Of a stretch of DNA of 33,926 bases, positions 10,712 through 18,959 are shown one piece after another. The DNA comes from an uncultured Holophagaceae bacterium (GTDB lineage: Bacteria; Acidobacteriota; Holophagae; Holophagales; Holophagaceae), in contig CAIWKE010000005.1 in assembly GCA_903913215.1 (NCBI GenBank), forward strand, positions 1 to 33,926. The letters are read 5' to 3'. The translations under genes were made by a program, and so were the position numbers. The notes under the pieces were generated by a model. It worked only from the letters and a program-made list of their open reading frames with translations. It did no database searches and was not told the DNA's origin. Every line of letters begins with the position of its first letter. Position 1 is the first letter of the stretch.

Positions 10712-12937
10712 CTAGGGGTGTTGAGGCTCAGCCCAGGCGTGGCTCCGGAGACCATCCGAGAAGTGAAGCTCCAGTTCTCCTGCTCCTGGGTTGAATTGGA
10801 AGTCTCCGCCATCGCCCAGGGCCAGGACGGTACCGGTCACCTTATCCCGCACCAAAACCATGGGGTGGGCCGTCGCATCCCACTGAAGGCGGGCGCGGCC
10901 ATTCTGGACCCGCTGGAGCGCGGGTTCCTTGGTGAAGGGCCGCACGGAGCGATCCTGCACCGAAGGTATGCTCTTTTTGGACGTCAGAATCTGACCGGCC
11001 CTGGACCAGCGAACCTCAACCAGATTGGCGACAGCCTGTTCATCGAGGGGAATCGAGAAGCCGAAGTGCTGAGCCTGGTCCTGGGGGAAATCACCCACAG
11101 CCACGAGACCGAAGGAAACAGCGAACAAGACCCGGCCTTGGGCGTCAAAGCCTTCCAGGAGTTGATCACCAGGCTCGGGAGGCTGTGCGTCCACGGCCAT
11201 GTGGAACACCGGCGCCAAGCTGGCGAGGTTCTGCTCCATCCTCCCCCAGAGAAGGAGGCTGCGCGGTCCTGTCGCTCCCTCTCCAGGTGCGGGCAGGATG
11301 ATGGGAGCGCTGCCCGACTGCCTGCGGGTGAGCACCTTCTTATAGTTGTAGTCACTGGCCCAGACCGGCGGGCAGTAGCTCATGATGTCGTGCACCACGG
11401 CTGGATCCTTGAGGGTCAGTCCGGCCAAATCGGTGCCCCACACTCCAATCGATGCGCCTCCGTAGGGGTAGACAGGATCCGGATTGGCTGGACTTCCACA
11501 GGGCGCGTGGCTGAGCCCGAAGTTGTGGCCAGTCTCGTGAGCGAAGATGCCAGGATATTGGAAGAGATCCTCGAAACCAGCGGACTTGTCCCAACCTATG
11601 GCCGTGGGTGTCCCAACCAGGGAGTAGCCTGCGATGCCACCGGCATAAGCGGGATTCACCACCCCGAAATACGAGCGGTCGCTGACTCCATCCGCCACGC
11701 GCTTGGCGTTCAGCTTGCCCAGGACGCTGTTCCAGGTGGTGGCATCGCTCAGGACATCAGTGACCGTGAAGGTTCCCCCATAGAGGCGGTCGACGACATT
11801 GTTGATGGGCCAAAGTTTTTCCAATGTGCTGGTGAAGCTGGCGGCCAGGGCGCTGCTGACCGTTCCTGCCCGGGAATCCCCGGTCTGCACGGACCAGAAT
11901 GTGACTCGGAAGGGAGGCAAGGTCCGAACATCCAAGGGGTATTGGGAGCCATCCGCAGGCCAGGTGTTGTTGGTCTTGTGGGACTCGGGGATGGCACCGG
12001 TGGGATCCACATCCACCAGAATCTTGTAGCCAGGCTGCAGATAAGTGGCGGGGATGGCCACGTTCCATGAATTCAACAGGCTGCTTTCGTCGACCGCGAT
12101 TGGAACCGAGGTCCCGGGAGCATTGATGGCAAAGGTCTGGGCCAGGAGGCCGGTTCCATCGAAGAAGCGCACCCGTACCTGGGGCTTGGCAGAGTTGGCC
12201 TGGTCAGCGACCACGAAGGCACGCAGGAAGCCCGACCGGTCTTTTACGAGGGGAACATCGAAGGCCTGGGTCTGAGTGGACTGGGTGATGTAGACCACGG
12301 GAATCGTGAGGTCGAGCAGAGCCGAGGCCGTCACTTGGAGGGAAGCGGCTGCGCTGGCGACTGTCCCAGCGGAGTTGGAGACGAGCACGTCGTAGGTTCC
12401 AGCATCACTGGCGAAGATCGAGGCGATGCTATAGCTGGGGCCAGTGGCACCGCTGATGCCGGTGCCACCCTTCCGCCACTGGTAGCTCAGGGGCGCCGTT
12501 CCCGAAGCCGTGACTGTGAACGTCGCCGGGCTCCCGGCGCTGAGGACTAGGCTCTGGGGCTGGGCCGTGATGGCTGGCGCGATGGCGACGGCATTCACCT
12601 GCAGGGTGGCCACGGCACTGGTGGCCGTTCCGGCGGCATTGGAGACAATGGCATCGTAGCTGCCGGAGTCGGCGGTGGCGGTCGCCCCAATGGTGAAGCT
12701 TGGGGCAGTGGCGCCGCTGATGCCGGTTCCACCCTTCCGCCACTGGTAGCTTAGGGGCGCCGTTCCCGAAGCCGTGACTGTGAACGTCGCCGGGCTCCCG
12801 GCGCTGAGGATCAGGCTCTGGGGCTGGAGTGTGACCGCGGGTGGTGTCGCGGAATTGCCGCCGATCGTGGTCCCGCCGCCACCGCCCCCGCAACCTGATA
12901 GCACCAGGAACCCGATCATCAAGCAGGCCAGTCGCAT
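10712..12937 (-). CDS. lipoprotein metalloprotease, metzincin/M66-like, with two Ig domains
   Basis: A 741-aa secreted lipoprotein: signal peptide with lipobox LVLSGC and a six-Gly tether. Two Ig-like domains follow (about 32-114 and 120-203), each with QPQSL, LSAGSPATFTVTASGTAPL, SYQWRKGGTGISGAT and Y-D-x-x-VSN. A CARDB-like beta region (about 205-335, with the ESHKTNNTWP motif) precedes the catalytic domain. That domain carries the zinc site HETGHNFGLSH (ligands H467, H471, H477), a nearby HAPCG and Met-turn M519 in DIMSYCPPVW. HExxHxxGxxH plus Met-turn defines metzincins; the HAPCG...YPYGG...DIMSYC...SDYNY context resembles M66 (StcE/TagA-like) proteases of extracellular glycoproteins. The ~220-residue C-terminal part is beta-rich. 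All catalytic residues appear intact. Confidence 0.88.
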   Translation of the reverse strand: MRLACLMIGFLVLSGCGGGGGGTTIGGNSATPPAVTLQPQSLILSAGSPATFTVTASGTAPLSYQWRKGGTGISGATAPSFTIGATATADSGSYDAIVSNAAGTATSAVATLQVNAVAIAPAITAQPQSLVLSAGSPATFTVTASGTAPLSYQWRKGGTGISGATGPSYSIASIFASDAGTYDVLVSNSAGTVASAAASLQVTASALLDLTIPVVYITQSTQTQAFDVPLVKDRSGFLRAFVVADQANSAKPQVRVRFFDGTGLLAQTFAINAPGTSVPIAVDESSLLNSWNVAIPATYLQPGYKILVDVDPTGAIPESHKTNNTWPADGSQYPLDVRTLPPFRVTFWSVQTGDSRAGTVSSALAASFTSTLEKLWPINNVVDRLYGGTFTVTDVLSDATTWNSVLGKLNAKRVADGVSDRSYFGVVNPAYAGGIAGYSLVGTPTAIGWDKSAGFEDLFQYPGIFAHETGHNFGLSHAPCGSPANPDPVYPYGGASIGVWGTDLAGLTLKDPAVVHDIMSYCPPVWASDYNYKKVLTRRQSGSAPIILPAPGEGATGPRSLLLWGRMEQNLASLAPVFHMAVDAQPPEPGDQLLEGFDAQGRVLFAVSFGLVAVGDFPQDQAQHFGFSIPLDEQAVANLVEVRWSRAGQILTSKKSIPSVQDRSVRPFTKEPALQRVQNGRARLQWDATAHPMVLVRDKVTGTVLALGDGGDFQFNPGAGELELHFSDGLRSHAWAEPQHP
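12452..12563. repeat. copy 1 of 112-bp intragenic direct repeat
   Basis: Encodes the core of the second Ig-like domain of the metalloprotease. By eye it differs from copy 2 (12716-12827) at only four positions, with a 264-bp (88-codon) period. That is far closer than typical for paralogous domains, indicating recent duplication or gene conversion. Confidence 0.85.
12716..12827. repeat. copy 2 of 112-bp intragenic direct repeat
   Basis: Encodes the core of the first Ig-like domain of the metalloprotease (gene reads right to left). Partner of 12452-12563; recombination between them would delete or add exactly one 88-residue domain in frame. Confidence 0.85.
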
Positions 12938-17087: not shown

Positions 17088-17831
17088 CTAGCGGCCCAGA
17101 GCCCGCCCCAGCCACTCCCAGCAGGCGAACTGCGTCTGGCGGAAACCCTCTTCCTGGGGCACCAGGTGCCAGAGCTGCCAGGGCGGAATGCGCCCCTGCT
17201 GGTCTGCGGGCACGGGCACCATGGCCAGGCCTTCGCGCTGGGCCAGGGCCAGGGCCCGTGGCAGGTGCCAGGCGGAGCTGAGCAGCCCCACCCGCTGCCA
17301 GCCTTCTTTCCGTCTGAGTCGGCCATAGGCCCGGATTTCCTGGCGGGTGTTGAGGCAGGGCTCCTCGATCATCGAGATGGCCGTCGCGGGCACGCCGAGT
17401 CCCAGCCAGAGCGCCCGGGTCTCGGCTCCCAGATTACGCGGGTGGGCCCCGCCGCTGCCAGCCCCGCTAGCCACCAGGCGCCGCACGCGGCCCGAGTGCC
17501 AGAGCTGCGCCGCCCGGGCGACTCGATCTCCGGAGGGCCCCAGCAGGGGAGCGCCAGCGGTGTCCAACTCCGTGCCCCCGCCCAGCACGAACAGGGCCTC
17601 CAGGGGGGCATCCCGGTCCGGGAAGGGCGGCACCTGTCGCTCCAGGCGGCCCATGAGGGCGTGTCCCAGTTGGAGATTCCCCGCCAGCGTGAACAACACG
17701 GTGAGTGCCGCGAGGAAGCGGCCCAGCCCGCGCTGCCGCCGCCAGGCCCAGGCTGTGGCTCCCAGCAGGCCCAGCCAGAGGAGGCCCGTGGGCATGGCAA
17801 GCATTCCGAGAAATTTGGCGAGCGCGAACAT
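17088..17831 (-). CDS. YdcF/ElyC-family DUF218 membrane protein
   Basis: 247 aa from ATG 17831 (FALAKFLGMLAMPTGLLWLG follows); an alternative ATG at 17858 would add nine residues. Two N-terminal membrane helices (about 8-30 and 38-60) anchor a DUF218 domain with ALFVLGGGTELD, SGDRVARAAQLWHSG, LVASGAGSGG, NLGAETRALWLGLGVP, EEPCLNTRQE and SSAWHLPRAL. Family members such as E. coli ElyC are linked to cell-envelope and peptidoglycan precursor homeostasis, but the reaction is not firmly known. It is divergent from the VanZ-LpxH fusion, with start codons only about 40 bp apart, so a shared control region is plausible. Confidence 0.85.
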   Translation of the reverse strand: MFALAKFLGMLAMPTGLLWLGLLGATAWAWRRQRGLGRFLAALTVLFTLAGNLQLGHALMGRLERQVPPFPDRDAPLEALFVLGGGTELDTAGAPLLGPSGDRVARAAQLWHSGRVRRLVASGAGSGGAHPRNLGAETRALWLGLGVPATAISMIEEPCLNTRQEIRAYGRLRRKEGWQRVGLLSSAWHLPRALALAQREGLAMVPVPADQQGRIPPWQLWHLVPQEEGFRQTQFACWEWLGRALGR

Positions 17832-17870
17832 GGCACTAGTCTGAGGCCAGGTTCCCATCCCCGTCCCGCC

Positions 17871-18959
17871 ATGGTTGGATGGATCATGCAAAAACGCTGG
17901 CTCTGGTCCCTCCCCCTGGCTGTGGCCCTGGGCATCGTGTGGCTCAGCGCCCAATCTCACTACCCCATGGGGGTCCAGCTGCCGCCGCCCCTGGACAAGC
18001 TGGCCCACGCCTCGGTGTTCGGCGCCCTGGCCTTCGCCCTGGACCTGGCCCTGCGCCTGAACCTGCCGGGCCTGCCGATGTACCGGCGCCACCTGCTGGT
18101 CTTCGCCCTGGTCTCAGGCTTCGGCGCCACGGATGAGTGGCACCAATACTTCGTGCCGGGCCGTTCCTGCGAGCTGCTGGACTGGGTGGCGGACACCGTG
18201 GGCGGCGGCCTGGGCCTCCTGGCTGGCAGCCTGCACCTGCTTTTCTCGCGCCGCCTGGCGTCCCTGTCCTGGCAGCGGGGCGGGACTCAGCGGCCGGAGC
18301 CCACCCGCGACCTGATCCTGGTGGCCGATCCCCACTGGAGCCACTCCCTGGAAGCCCTGGAGCAGGCCACGACCCGCTTCCCAGAAGCCGACTGGCTCTT
18401 CCTGGGCGATGTCTTCGACGTGTGGGTGGGCCTGCCGGGCATGGAAACCGAAGCCCAGCGGGCCTTCCTGACCTGGGCCGATGCCCGCCGCGCCCAGGGC
18501 CGCTGGGTGGGGCTCTGGCTGGGCAACCGGGAATACTTCCTGGACCGCCACGCCACCCGCTTCGACCTCATCGGTGAGGGCGTGGGTGGCGCCCTGCCTG
18601 CGGAGGGTCTGACCTGGGAACATGGCGACCTCATCAACGGTGCCGACCGCCCTTACCGCGTGTGGAACCTCATCTCCCGCTCAGGGCCCCTCTGGCTGTT
18701 CTTCCGCCTCCTGCCCGGCCCCACCGCCCATCGCCTTTCCACCAGCCTGGAGCGGAAGCTGCACACCACCAACGCCACCTACAAGCTGGCCTTCCCCCGC
18801 GCCGCCTTCCGCGCCGCCGCCGAAGCGAAACCCGGCACCACCTTCCTCACCGGCCACTTCCACACCCACGAGGTCGAAGCCAATGGCATCGCCCTGCCCT
18901 GGGCCCACGAGGGGCAGCTGATGGTGTGGAGGGCCCAGAAGGTCGAGGCGCTGGGGTAG
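17871..18959 (+). CDS. VanZ domain fused to LpxH-like metallophosphoesterase
   Basis: 362 aa from ATG 17871 (an ATG at 17886 would give 357). Residues about 5-130 are a VanZ-like membrane domain: AQSHYPMG, LDKLAHASVFGALAFAL, then FGATDEWHQYFVPGR and DWVADTVGGGLGLL. Residues about 145-362 are an LpxH-type phosphoesterase with all seven expected metal ligands: D153 and H155 (VADPHW, normally SDLHL), D180 (GDVFDVW), N219 (GNREYF), H251 (WEHGD) and H329/H331 (GHFHTH). LpxH cleaves UDP-2,3-diacylglucosamine to lipid X in lipid A synthesis. The reading frame runs through the join without a stop, and the VanZ helices would hold the phosphoesterase at the membrane. Whether the substrate is the classical one is unknown. 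Confidence 0.88.
   Translation: MVGWIMQKRWLWSLPLAVALGIVWLSAQSHYPMGVQLPPPLDKLAHASVFGALAFALDLALRLNLPGLPMYRRHLLVFALVSGFGATDEWHQYFVPGRSCELLDWVADTVGGGLGLLAGSLHLLFSRRLASLSWQRGGTQRPEPTRDLILVADPHWSHSLEALEQATTRFPEADWLFLGDVFDVWVGLPGMETEAQRAFLTWADARRAQGRWVGLWLGNREYFLDRHATRFDLIGEGVGGALPAEGLTWEHGDLINGADRPYRVWNLISRSGPLWLFFRLLPGPTAHRLSTSLERKLHTTNATYKLAFPRAAFRAAAEAKPGTTFLTGHFHTHEVEANGIALPWAHEGQLMVWRAQKVEALG

Follow-up and report, generated by a model that had tools for sequence, protein, structure and literature searches.

The DNA analysed here, called the window in the following, is a stretch of 33,926 nucleotides from an uncultured Holophagaceae bacterium. At positions 17871-18959 of its plus strand lies a single open reading frame, 362 codons long before its stop codon, and the translation runs without an internal stop through a VanZ membrane domain and an LpxH-like phosphoesterase. 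An earlier note, made from the letters of the sequence, had described such a fusion in one frame, and the fusion is confirmed with both domains matched. The features of the gene are the following:

17871..18959, plus strand: whole fusion gene VanZ + LpxH-like phosphoesterase; 362 aa, or 357 aa from the ATG at 17886, the better supported start

17895..18242, plus strand: four predicted membrane helices forming the VanZ domain (residues 9-26, 41-64, 70-92 and 102-124; AlphaFold2 model)

17994..18194, plus strand: VanZ motif residues D42, H46, D88, E89, Q92, R98, D104 and D108 (DKxxH, DExxQ and DxxxD in helices 2, 3 and 4, respectively; predicted periplasmic side)

18075..18092, plus strand: loop P-x-Y-R-R-H between helices 2 and 3 (residues 69-74; predicted cytosolic; signature of the fused form)

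18243..18305, plus strand: Arg-rich linker after helix 4 (residues 125-145; W134, G137 and R141 invariant)

18306..18956, plus strand: LpxH-like phosphoesterase domain with helical insertion (residues 146-362, 217 residues; insertion helices 260-269, 272-280, 283-296 and 310-318)

18327..18863, plus strand: codons of the metal ligands D153, H155, D180, N219, H251, H329 and H331 and of R220 (from profile alignment and conservation)

The open frame extends upstream of 17871 and comprises 653 codons in total. The ATG at 17886 (Met6) is probably the real start, since proteins from several other genera begin at the place of Met6. Moreover, four near-full-length matches (in genomes G036, G021, G012 and G071) contain one stop each, and the three of them that were read (L023, L025, L026) are open from the Met6 place on, which argues for the same codon. 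Met6 is preceded by the bases GGTTGGATGGATC. The genome contains one copy of the fusion gene.

A gene for a DUF218 (ElyC-like) protein (17088-17858, minus strand) is oriented divergently, and if it begins with the ATG at 17858, its start lies about 12 bases from that of the fusion gene. DUF218 appears as a neighbour of VanZ-1 genes in PMC12419801. Among 56 other loci, the divergent DUF218 gene is found no more than 400 bases from the fusion in two and 3.1-4.5 kb away in five more, with many loci too short to show more; EngB is convergent in 32 of the 56, all of them Geothrix-like. A functional gene cluster was considered and rejected, since the neighbours are not conserved beyond the Geothrix-like loci. 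The 16 window proteins that were scanned include no Lpx enzyme. Elsewhere in the window (10712-12937, minus strand), a 741-aa protein with Ig-like domains matches Peptidase_M66 with 29.7 bits (cut-off 20.6).

The C-terminal domain matches the NCBIfam LpxH model NF003743 over residues 154-336 with 31 bits (cut-off 134) and TIGR01854 with 18.8 bits (cut-off 190). Since these curated equivalog cut-offs are not reached, we file the protein as LpxH-like and not as LpxH. A profile built from ten Holophagales catalytic domains (A2) found nine matches among all PDB sequences with E values of 2e-11 to 5.6e-8, all of them LpxH, the tenth (E 0.33) being unrelated. In addition, the two LpxH models are the only NCBIfam models matched at E ≤ 0.01 by the ten profile members, and all ten match both. 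The LpxG model NF033458 and LpxI_C (PF06230) are not among the NCBIfam and Pfam matches, respectively, of the fusion protein up to E 1.

The seven metal ligands had all been read correctly from the letters: in the profile alignment D153, H155, D180, N219, H251, H329 and H331 fall on Asp8, His10, Asp41, Asn79, His114, His195 and His197 of P. aeruginosa LpxH (5b49), which are listed as ligands of its dinuclear centre in PMC5016852. In an alignment of 61 distinct sequences, the window's own included, six of the seven are invariant and H329 is present in 60; the exception (L113) has a deviating C-terminus and stems from a draft assembly. R220, which aligns with Arg80 of P. aeruginosa LpxH, is found in 61 of 61. 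PMC5016852 states that LpxH alone has Arg instead of the usual His after the GN motif and that this residue binds the lipid X phosphate.

The AlphaFold2 model of the full-length protein, built with 23 sequences, is of middling confidence (pLDDT 79.5, pTM 0.79), with pLDDT values below 50 at residues 1-5 and 331-334, the latter including a metal ligand. All 23 PDB matches of this model in Foldseek at E ≤ 0.001 are LpxH, and VIA-align gave Z scores of 18.1-19.4 for 22 LpxH entries (rmsd 2.5-2.9 over 204-215 residues) and of 14.6 for one mutant, compared to 11.5 for the best phosphoesterase other than LpxH. The domain hence shares with the UDP-2,3-diacylglucosamine diphosphatases LpxH of E. coli, P. 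aeruginosa and K. pneumoniae the seven ligands, the Arg after the GN motif, the helical insertion and the whole-domain fold (Z about 19). It differs from them in its low identity (15-20% to the LpxH structures) and its scores below the cut-offs, in GNRE instead of GNRD, and in ADPHW instead of SDLHL, a change already seen in the first reading, with W156 invariant in 61 of 61 and P154 variable. A further difference is the N-terminal membrane domain, which is absent from the solved LpxH proteins.

This N-terminal half exceeds the cut-offs of Pfam VanZ (PF04892, residues 37-118, 39.1 bits, cut-off 30.1) and of NCBIfam vanZ_1 (54.6 bits, cut-off 20). Modelled alone, it is predicted to form four helices with a pLDDT of 90.2. 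By fold, the model has no PDB match at E ≤ 0.001, and its best Z score, 8.1 to photosystem I subunit L, says little for a helical bundle; a sequence search of the PDB for a solved VanZ relative gave chance hits only. With the VanZ family, which PMC12419801 places in the Lipocone superfamily, the domain shares the four helices, which are predicted here, and the DKxxH/DExxQ/DxxxD set, the family's His of helix 2, Glu of helix 3 and Asp of helix 4 being present as H46, E89 and D104 plus D108. By the motif scheme of that paper, the fused VanZ would be of the VanZ-2 type. It differs from the family in the attached hydrolase, in the Y-R-R-H loop and in that the motif is gone in several genera.

The eight motif residues are kept all or none: 49 of the 61 sequences hold all eight and 12 hold 0-2 of them. 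The latter belong to the genera g2, g3, g6 and g11 and have kept the hydrophobic helices, apart from helix 1, which is also gone in several. In the 49 motif-bearing sequences the motif residues are invariant, although the columns of their VanZ domain have a median conservation of only 0.78, and for this reason these lineages seem to use the motif for something. Between the two groups the LpxH half is 59% identical, the VanZ half down to 26%. In a catalytic-domain tree that includes five outgroup rows, at which the tree program warns of long branches, the fused proteins all group together (98/95). The VanZ state calls for four changes on this tree, but a scenario with just one loss passes the AU test (p 0.343); the motif was probably lost between one and four times.

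Additional VanZ genes occur in two of the genera concerned. Two g6 genomes carry a stand-alone VanZ (L146, G058:C176; L147, G055:C158) of about 125 aa, in which the motif is complete and the identity to the window's fused VanZ is about 51%. The fused copy of the first of them (L105) has lost the motif, as have all four g6 fused copies read, that of G055 not being among them. VanZ activity may therefore reside on a separate gene in two of the five g6 genomes, the assemblies of which are incomplete. In genus g3, where the fused VanZ is decayed, another VanZ gene with RKxxH-like and DExxQ motifs (L148, G050:C79; L149, G051:C1:360821) is present, and a gene whose frame reads like FtsQ follows directly downstream. 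The g2 genomes (G001-G003) are only 0.9-1.2 Mb in size at 84-97% completeness. All three have retained LpxK as well as the fused enzyme, the membrane part of which is shortened and decayed.

Both the motif-keeping and the motif-less group have the loop P-x-Y-[RK]-R-H that joins helices 2 and 3 (P69, R73 and H74 in 61 of 61, Y71 in 59), whereas it occurs in none of nine aligned stand-alone VanZ proteins, the two of genus g6 among them. Since it is present in both fused groups but in no stand-alone VanZ aligned, it would go with the enzyme and not with VanZ, and we infer that it contacts or docks the catalytic domain. Positive residues precede helix 1, occupy the loop from helix 2 to helix 3 and follow helix 4 (K8, R9, R72, R73, R127, R128, R136, R141 and R146), which is the proposed cytosolic side, and the other side is positive only at the motif residues K43 and R98. 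From this Arg distribution (positive-inside rule) and the number of helices, the catalytic domain is predicted to be cytosolic, where the substrate of LpxH is, and the VanZ motif would in turn face the periplasm. The active site of membrane lipocones is likewise inferred to face the periplasm in PMC12419801.

Since the hydrophobic helices outlive the VanZ motif, tethering is the one role open to all members. The suggestion of the earlier note that VanZ localises or regulates the enzyme therefore stands in part: localising can hold for all, whereas regulation or a second activity could apply only to the motif-keeping lineages (49 of 61). Whereas ordinary LpxH is bound to the membrane peripherally, a tethered enzyme of this step has its nearest precedent in LpxG, which makes lipid X in Chlamydia and is likewise a calcineurin-like UDP-diacylglucosamine hydrolase with an N-terminal membrane segment of one predicted helix (PMC4807358). 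However, LpxG has GNHD where the fusion has GNRE, belongs to another phosphoesterase subfamily and has a single helix and no VanZ.

Searching for the domain pair across genomes, we found fusion matches in 74 of 77 Holophagales genomes (Geothrix and kin, the own genome included). The catalytic half is matched in 72 of the 77, since the matches in G072 and G076 are confined to the VanZ half. The three genomes without a match consist of 90 to 350 contigs and are 72, 84 and 96% complete. A scan of 84,980 species genomes by pattern, which detects close relatives only, returned 43 loci. The fusion is present in 36 of them, all from Holophagaceae, Geothrix or 'Acidobacteria' records and two of them (L063, L065) partial at contig ends; the remaining seven are VanZ-only loci of Verrucomicrobia and Firmicutes. 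Within what was searched, the VanZ-LpxH fusion was seen confined to Holophagales.

Unfused relatives of the catalytic half are more widespread. Outside the class, the A2 profile matched 42 proteins of other Acidobacteriota with 47-117 bits, and the 20 of them that were read all have GNR and lack a hydrophobic N-terminal part. All seven genomes of the sister family f3 contain unfused homologues, in open frames of 240-280 codons, and six that were read (L151-L156) carry GNH in five cases and GNR in one at the place of Arg220. Family f2 shows weak matches only (26-37 bits, seven of nine genomes), with GNW in both sequences read (L157-L158). Since most of the f3 and both of the f2 sequences read carry His or Trp, respectively, and yet these families are also without LpxI, the Arg is not a strict mark of the lipid X job in this class. 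The class thereby offers a natural series at the substrate-binding residue, from Arg over GNH in most of f3 to GNW in f2.

Of the lipid A enzymes, LpxH, LpxI, LpxK and LpxB were looked for. No LpxH above the curated NF003743 cut-off was found in the 77 Holophagales genomes, in a search that gave a signal in 4 of 14 control genomes and exceeded the cut-off in one. Two extra weak hits (G051, G069) were rejected as a second LpxH, being other phosphoesterases with GNHD. LpxI, an unrelated protein for the same expected step, was found in none of the 77 Holophagales and in none of the 93 genomes of the class. LpxK is present in 72 of the 77 Holophagales and LpxB in 20 of 21 relatives, in both cases including the own genome. 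The earlier note had regarded a second, canonical LpxH, together with a lack of activity on the lipid substrate, as a point against its reading and had raised LpxI and LpxG as further candidates: neither a cut-off-scoring LpxH nor LpxI turned up in the 77 genomes, and LpxG is represented in the own genome only by distant relatives. Apart from the fusion, Metallophos matches 14 proteins of the own genome, among them two such LpxG/YaeI relatives with hydrophobic N-terminal parts, which score 89 bits (L089) and 59 bits (L092) with the LpxG model (cut-off 350). LpxJ was dropped as a fourth type of hydrolase, since it is an acyltransferase in PMC6286764.

Among 149 sampled Acidobacteriota genomes, the A2 family is present in 56 (E ≤ 1e-6) and LpxI in 84 (E ≤ 0.001); none has both and nine have neither. 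That both searches covered the same 149 genomes is deduced from shared genome handles. The exclusion has a Fisher p of 7e-32, uncorrected for kinship, and the 22 and 39 families concerned have none in common. As the job of LpxI is known, this strict mutual exclusion, the strongest evidence on the role of the enzyme, argues that the A2 family likely does the same job. The nine genomes with neither (G121, G133, G151, G167, G175, G176, G192, G202 and G212) may use LpxG-like enzymes or be without lipid A.

We propose that the gene product is the fourth enzyme of the lipid A pathway in Holophagales, a membrane-tethered LpxH-like hydrolase which would convert UDP-2,3-diacylglucosamine to lipid X and UMP at the cytosolic face of the inner membrane. 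On the basis of sequence comparison and modelling, we give this reading a probability of roughly 0.77. The enzyme very probably works like LpxH, from which its substrate and product are assigned. The putative membrane-bound UDP-diacylglucosamine hydrolase of the first reading is thereby upheld as the main explanation, with LpxI and a cut-off-scoring LpxH not found in the 77 Holophagales genomes and LpxK and LpxB present.

In the proposed mechanism, UDP-2,3-diacylglucosamine of the inner leaflet would enter the crevice between the catalytic core and the helical insertion, the metal pair would activate water and R220 would hold the beta phosphate, with UMP and lipid X as products. These steps are modelled on the LpxH mechanism proposed in PMC5016852. 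As the four VanZ helices are predicted to end inside the cell, the catalytic domain would hang in the cytosol, and the helices would hold the enzyme at the membrane, where LpxB would take lipid X. A speculative addition, with YejM as precedent, is that in most lineages an outer-leaflet lipid may be bound or processed at the VanZ site across the membrane and signalled to the enzyme.

Compatible with this explanation, and possible although held with clearly less confidence, is a protein with two faces, in which the VanZ domain would do more than anchor: with an active site open to the outer face of the inner membrane, it would bind or cleave the head group of a lipid there (an undecaprenyl-linked sugar or finished lipid A) and might or might not influence the LpxH domain. 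The invariance of all eight motif residues in 49 of 61 sequences points to selection on such a site, PMC12419801 infers an action of VanZ on outer-leaflet head groups, and E. coli YejM senses LPS of the periplasmic leaflet to set LpxC (PMC12444477). However, the 12 sequences without the motif retain the LpxH ligands, so a VanZ activity would be dispensable for the enzyme. The lipid head-group chemistry of VanZ is a prediction in PMC12419801, and the substrate of the site and the coupling between both sites are predictions as well. Rather doubtful is the fullest form of this idea, in which a periplasmic VanZ lipocone would read or process a head group, the cytosolic LpxH domain would make lipid X and the Y-R-R-H loop would couple the two, so that lipid A supply would be set in cis by accumulation outside. 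If true, such a two-sited protein would provide a feedback route unlike the YejM-LapB-FtsH control of LpxC, and VanZ would gain a defined partner enzyme.

It is improbable that the phosphoesterase cleaves another nucleotide- or pyrophosphate-linked lipid, the alternative substrate considered in the earlier note, while an LpxG-like metallophosphoesterase of the genome makes lipid X. The two distant LpxG/YaeI-like proteins of the own genome would be candidates for the latter task, the identity to proven LpxH is low, and PMC12419801 links VanZ families to other envelope polysaccharides. Against this, the mutual exclusion with LpxI in the 149 genomes fits a substitute for LpxI and not an enzyme of another lipid, and the significant matches of the domain are only LpxH models and LpxH structures. 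That two separate genes were joined by chance or by a sequencing error, the refuting case that the earlier note placed at about 18280-18310, is practically ruled out, because many genomes across the order match over the join in one frame, and the join region (18240-18340) is free of homopolymers of five or more equal bases and even in GC3.

The fusion was not found in the open-licence literature searched: no paper names both LpxH and VanZ, and among the papers listed on lipid A and its LpxH or LpxI step none mentions Holophaga and one mentions Acidobacteria, in a figure legend. The main text of PMC12419801 does not contain the term LpxH, and the fusion may be listed in its source-data tables. 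Since VanZ is the only NCBIfam model which the fusion protein passes, we infer that automatic annotation would call it a VanZ family protein and miss the enzyme. If our main reading is true, lipid A synthesis in a whole bacterial order depends on an LpxH anchored in the membrane, which curated models recognise only as VanZ, so that the genomes appear to be without this step. The widespread VanZ domain would then be covalently tied to a single defined enzyme of lipid metabolism, and variants with and without the VanZ motif occur naturally. For the phylum, the either-or of the LpxH-like family and LpxI in the sampled Acidobacteriota would be a useful annotation rule. In place of the usual free-standing enzymes, the Holophagales of soils and sediments appear to depend on a joined one.
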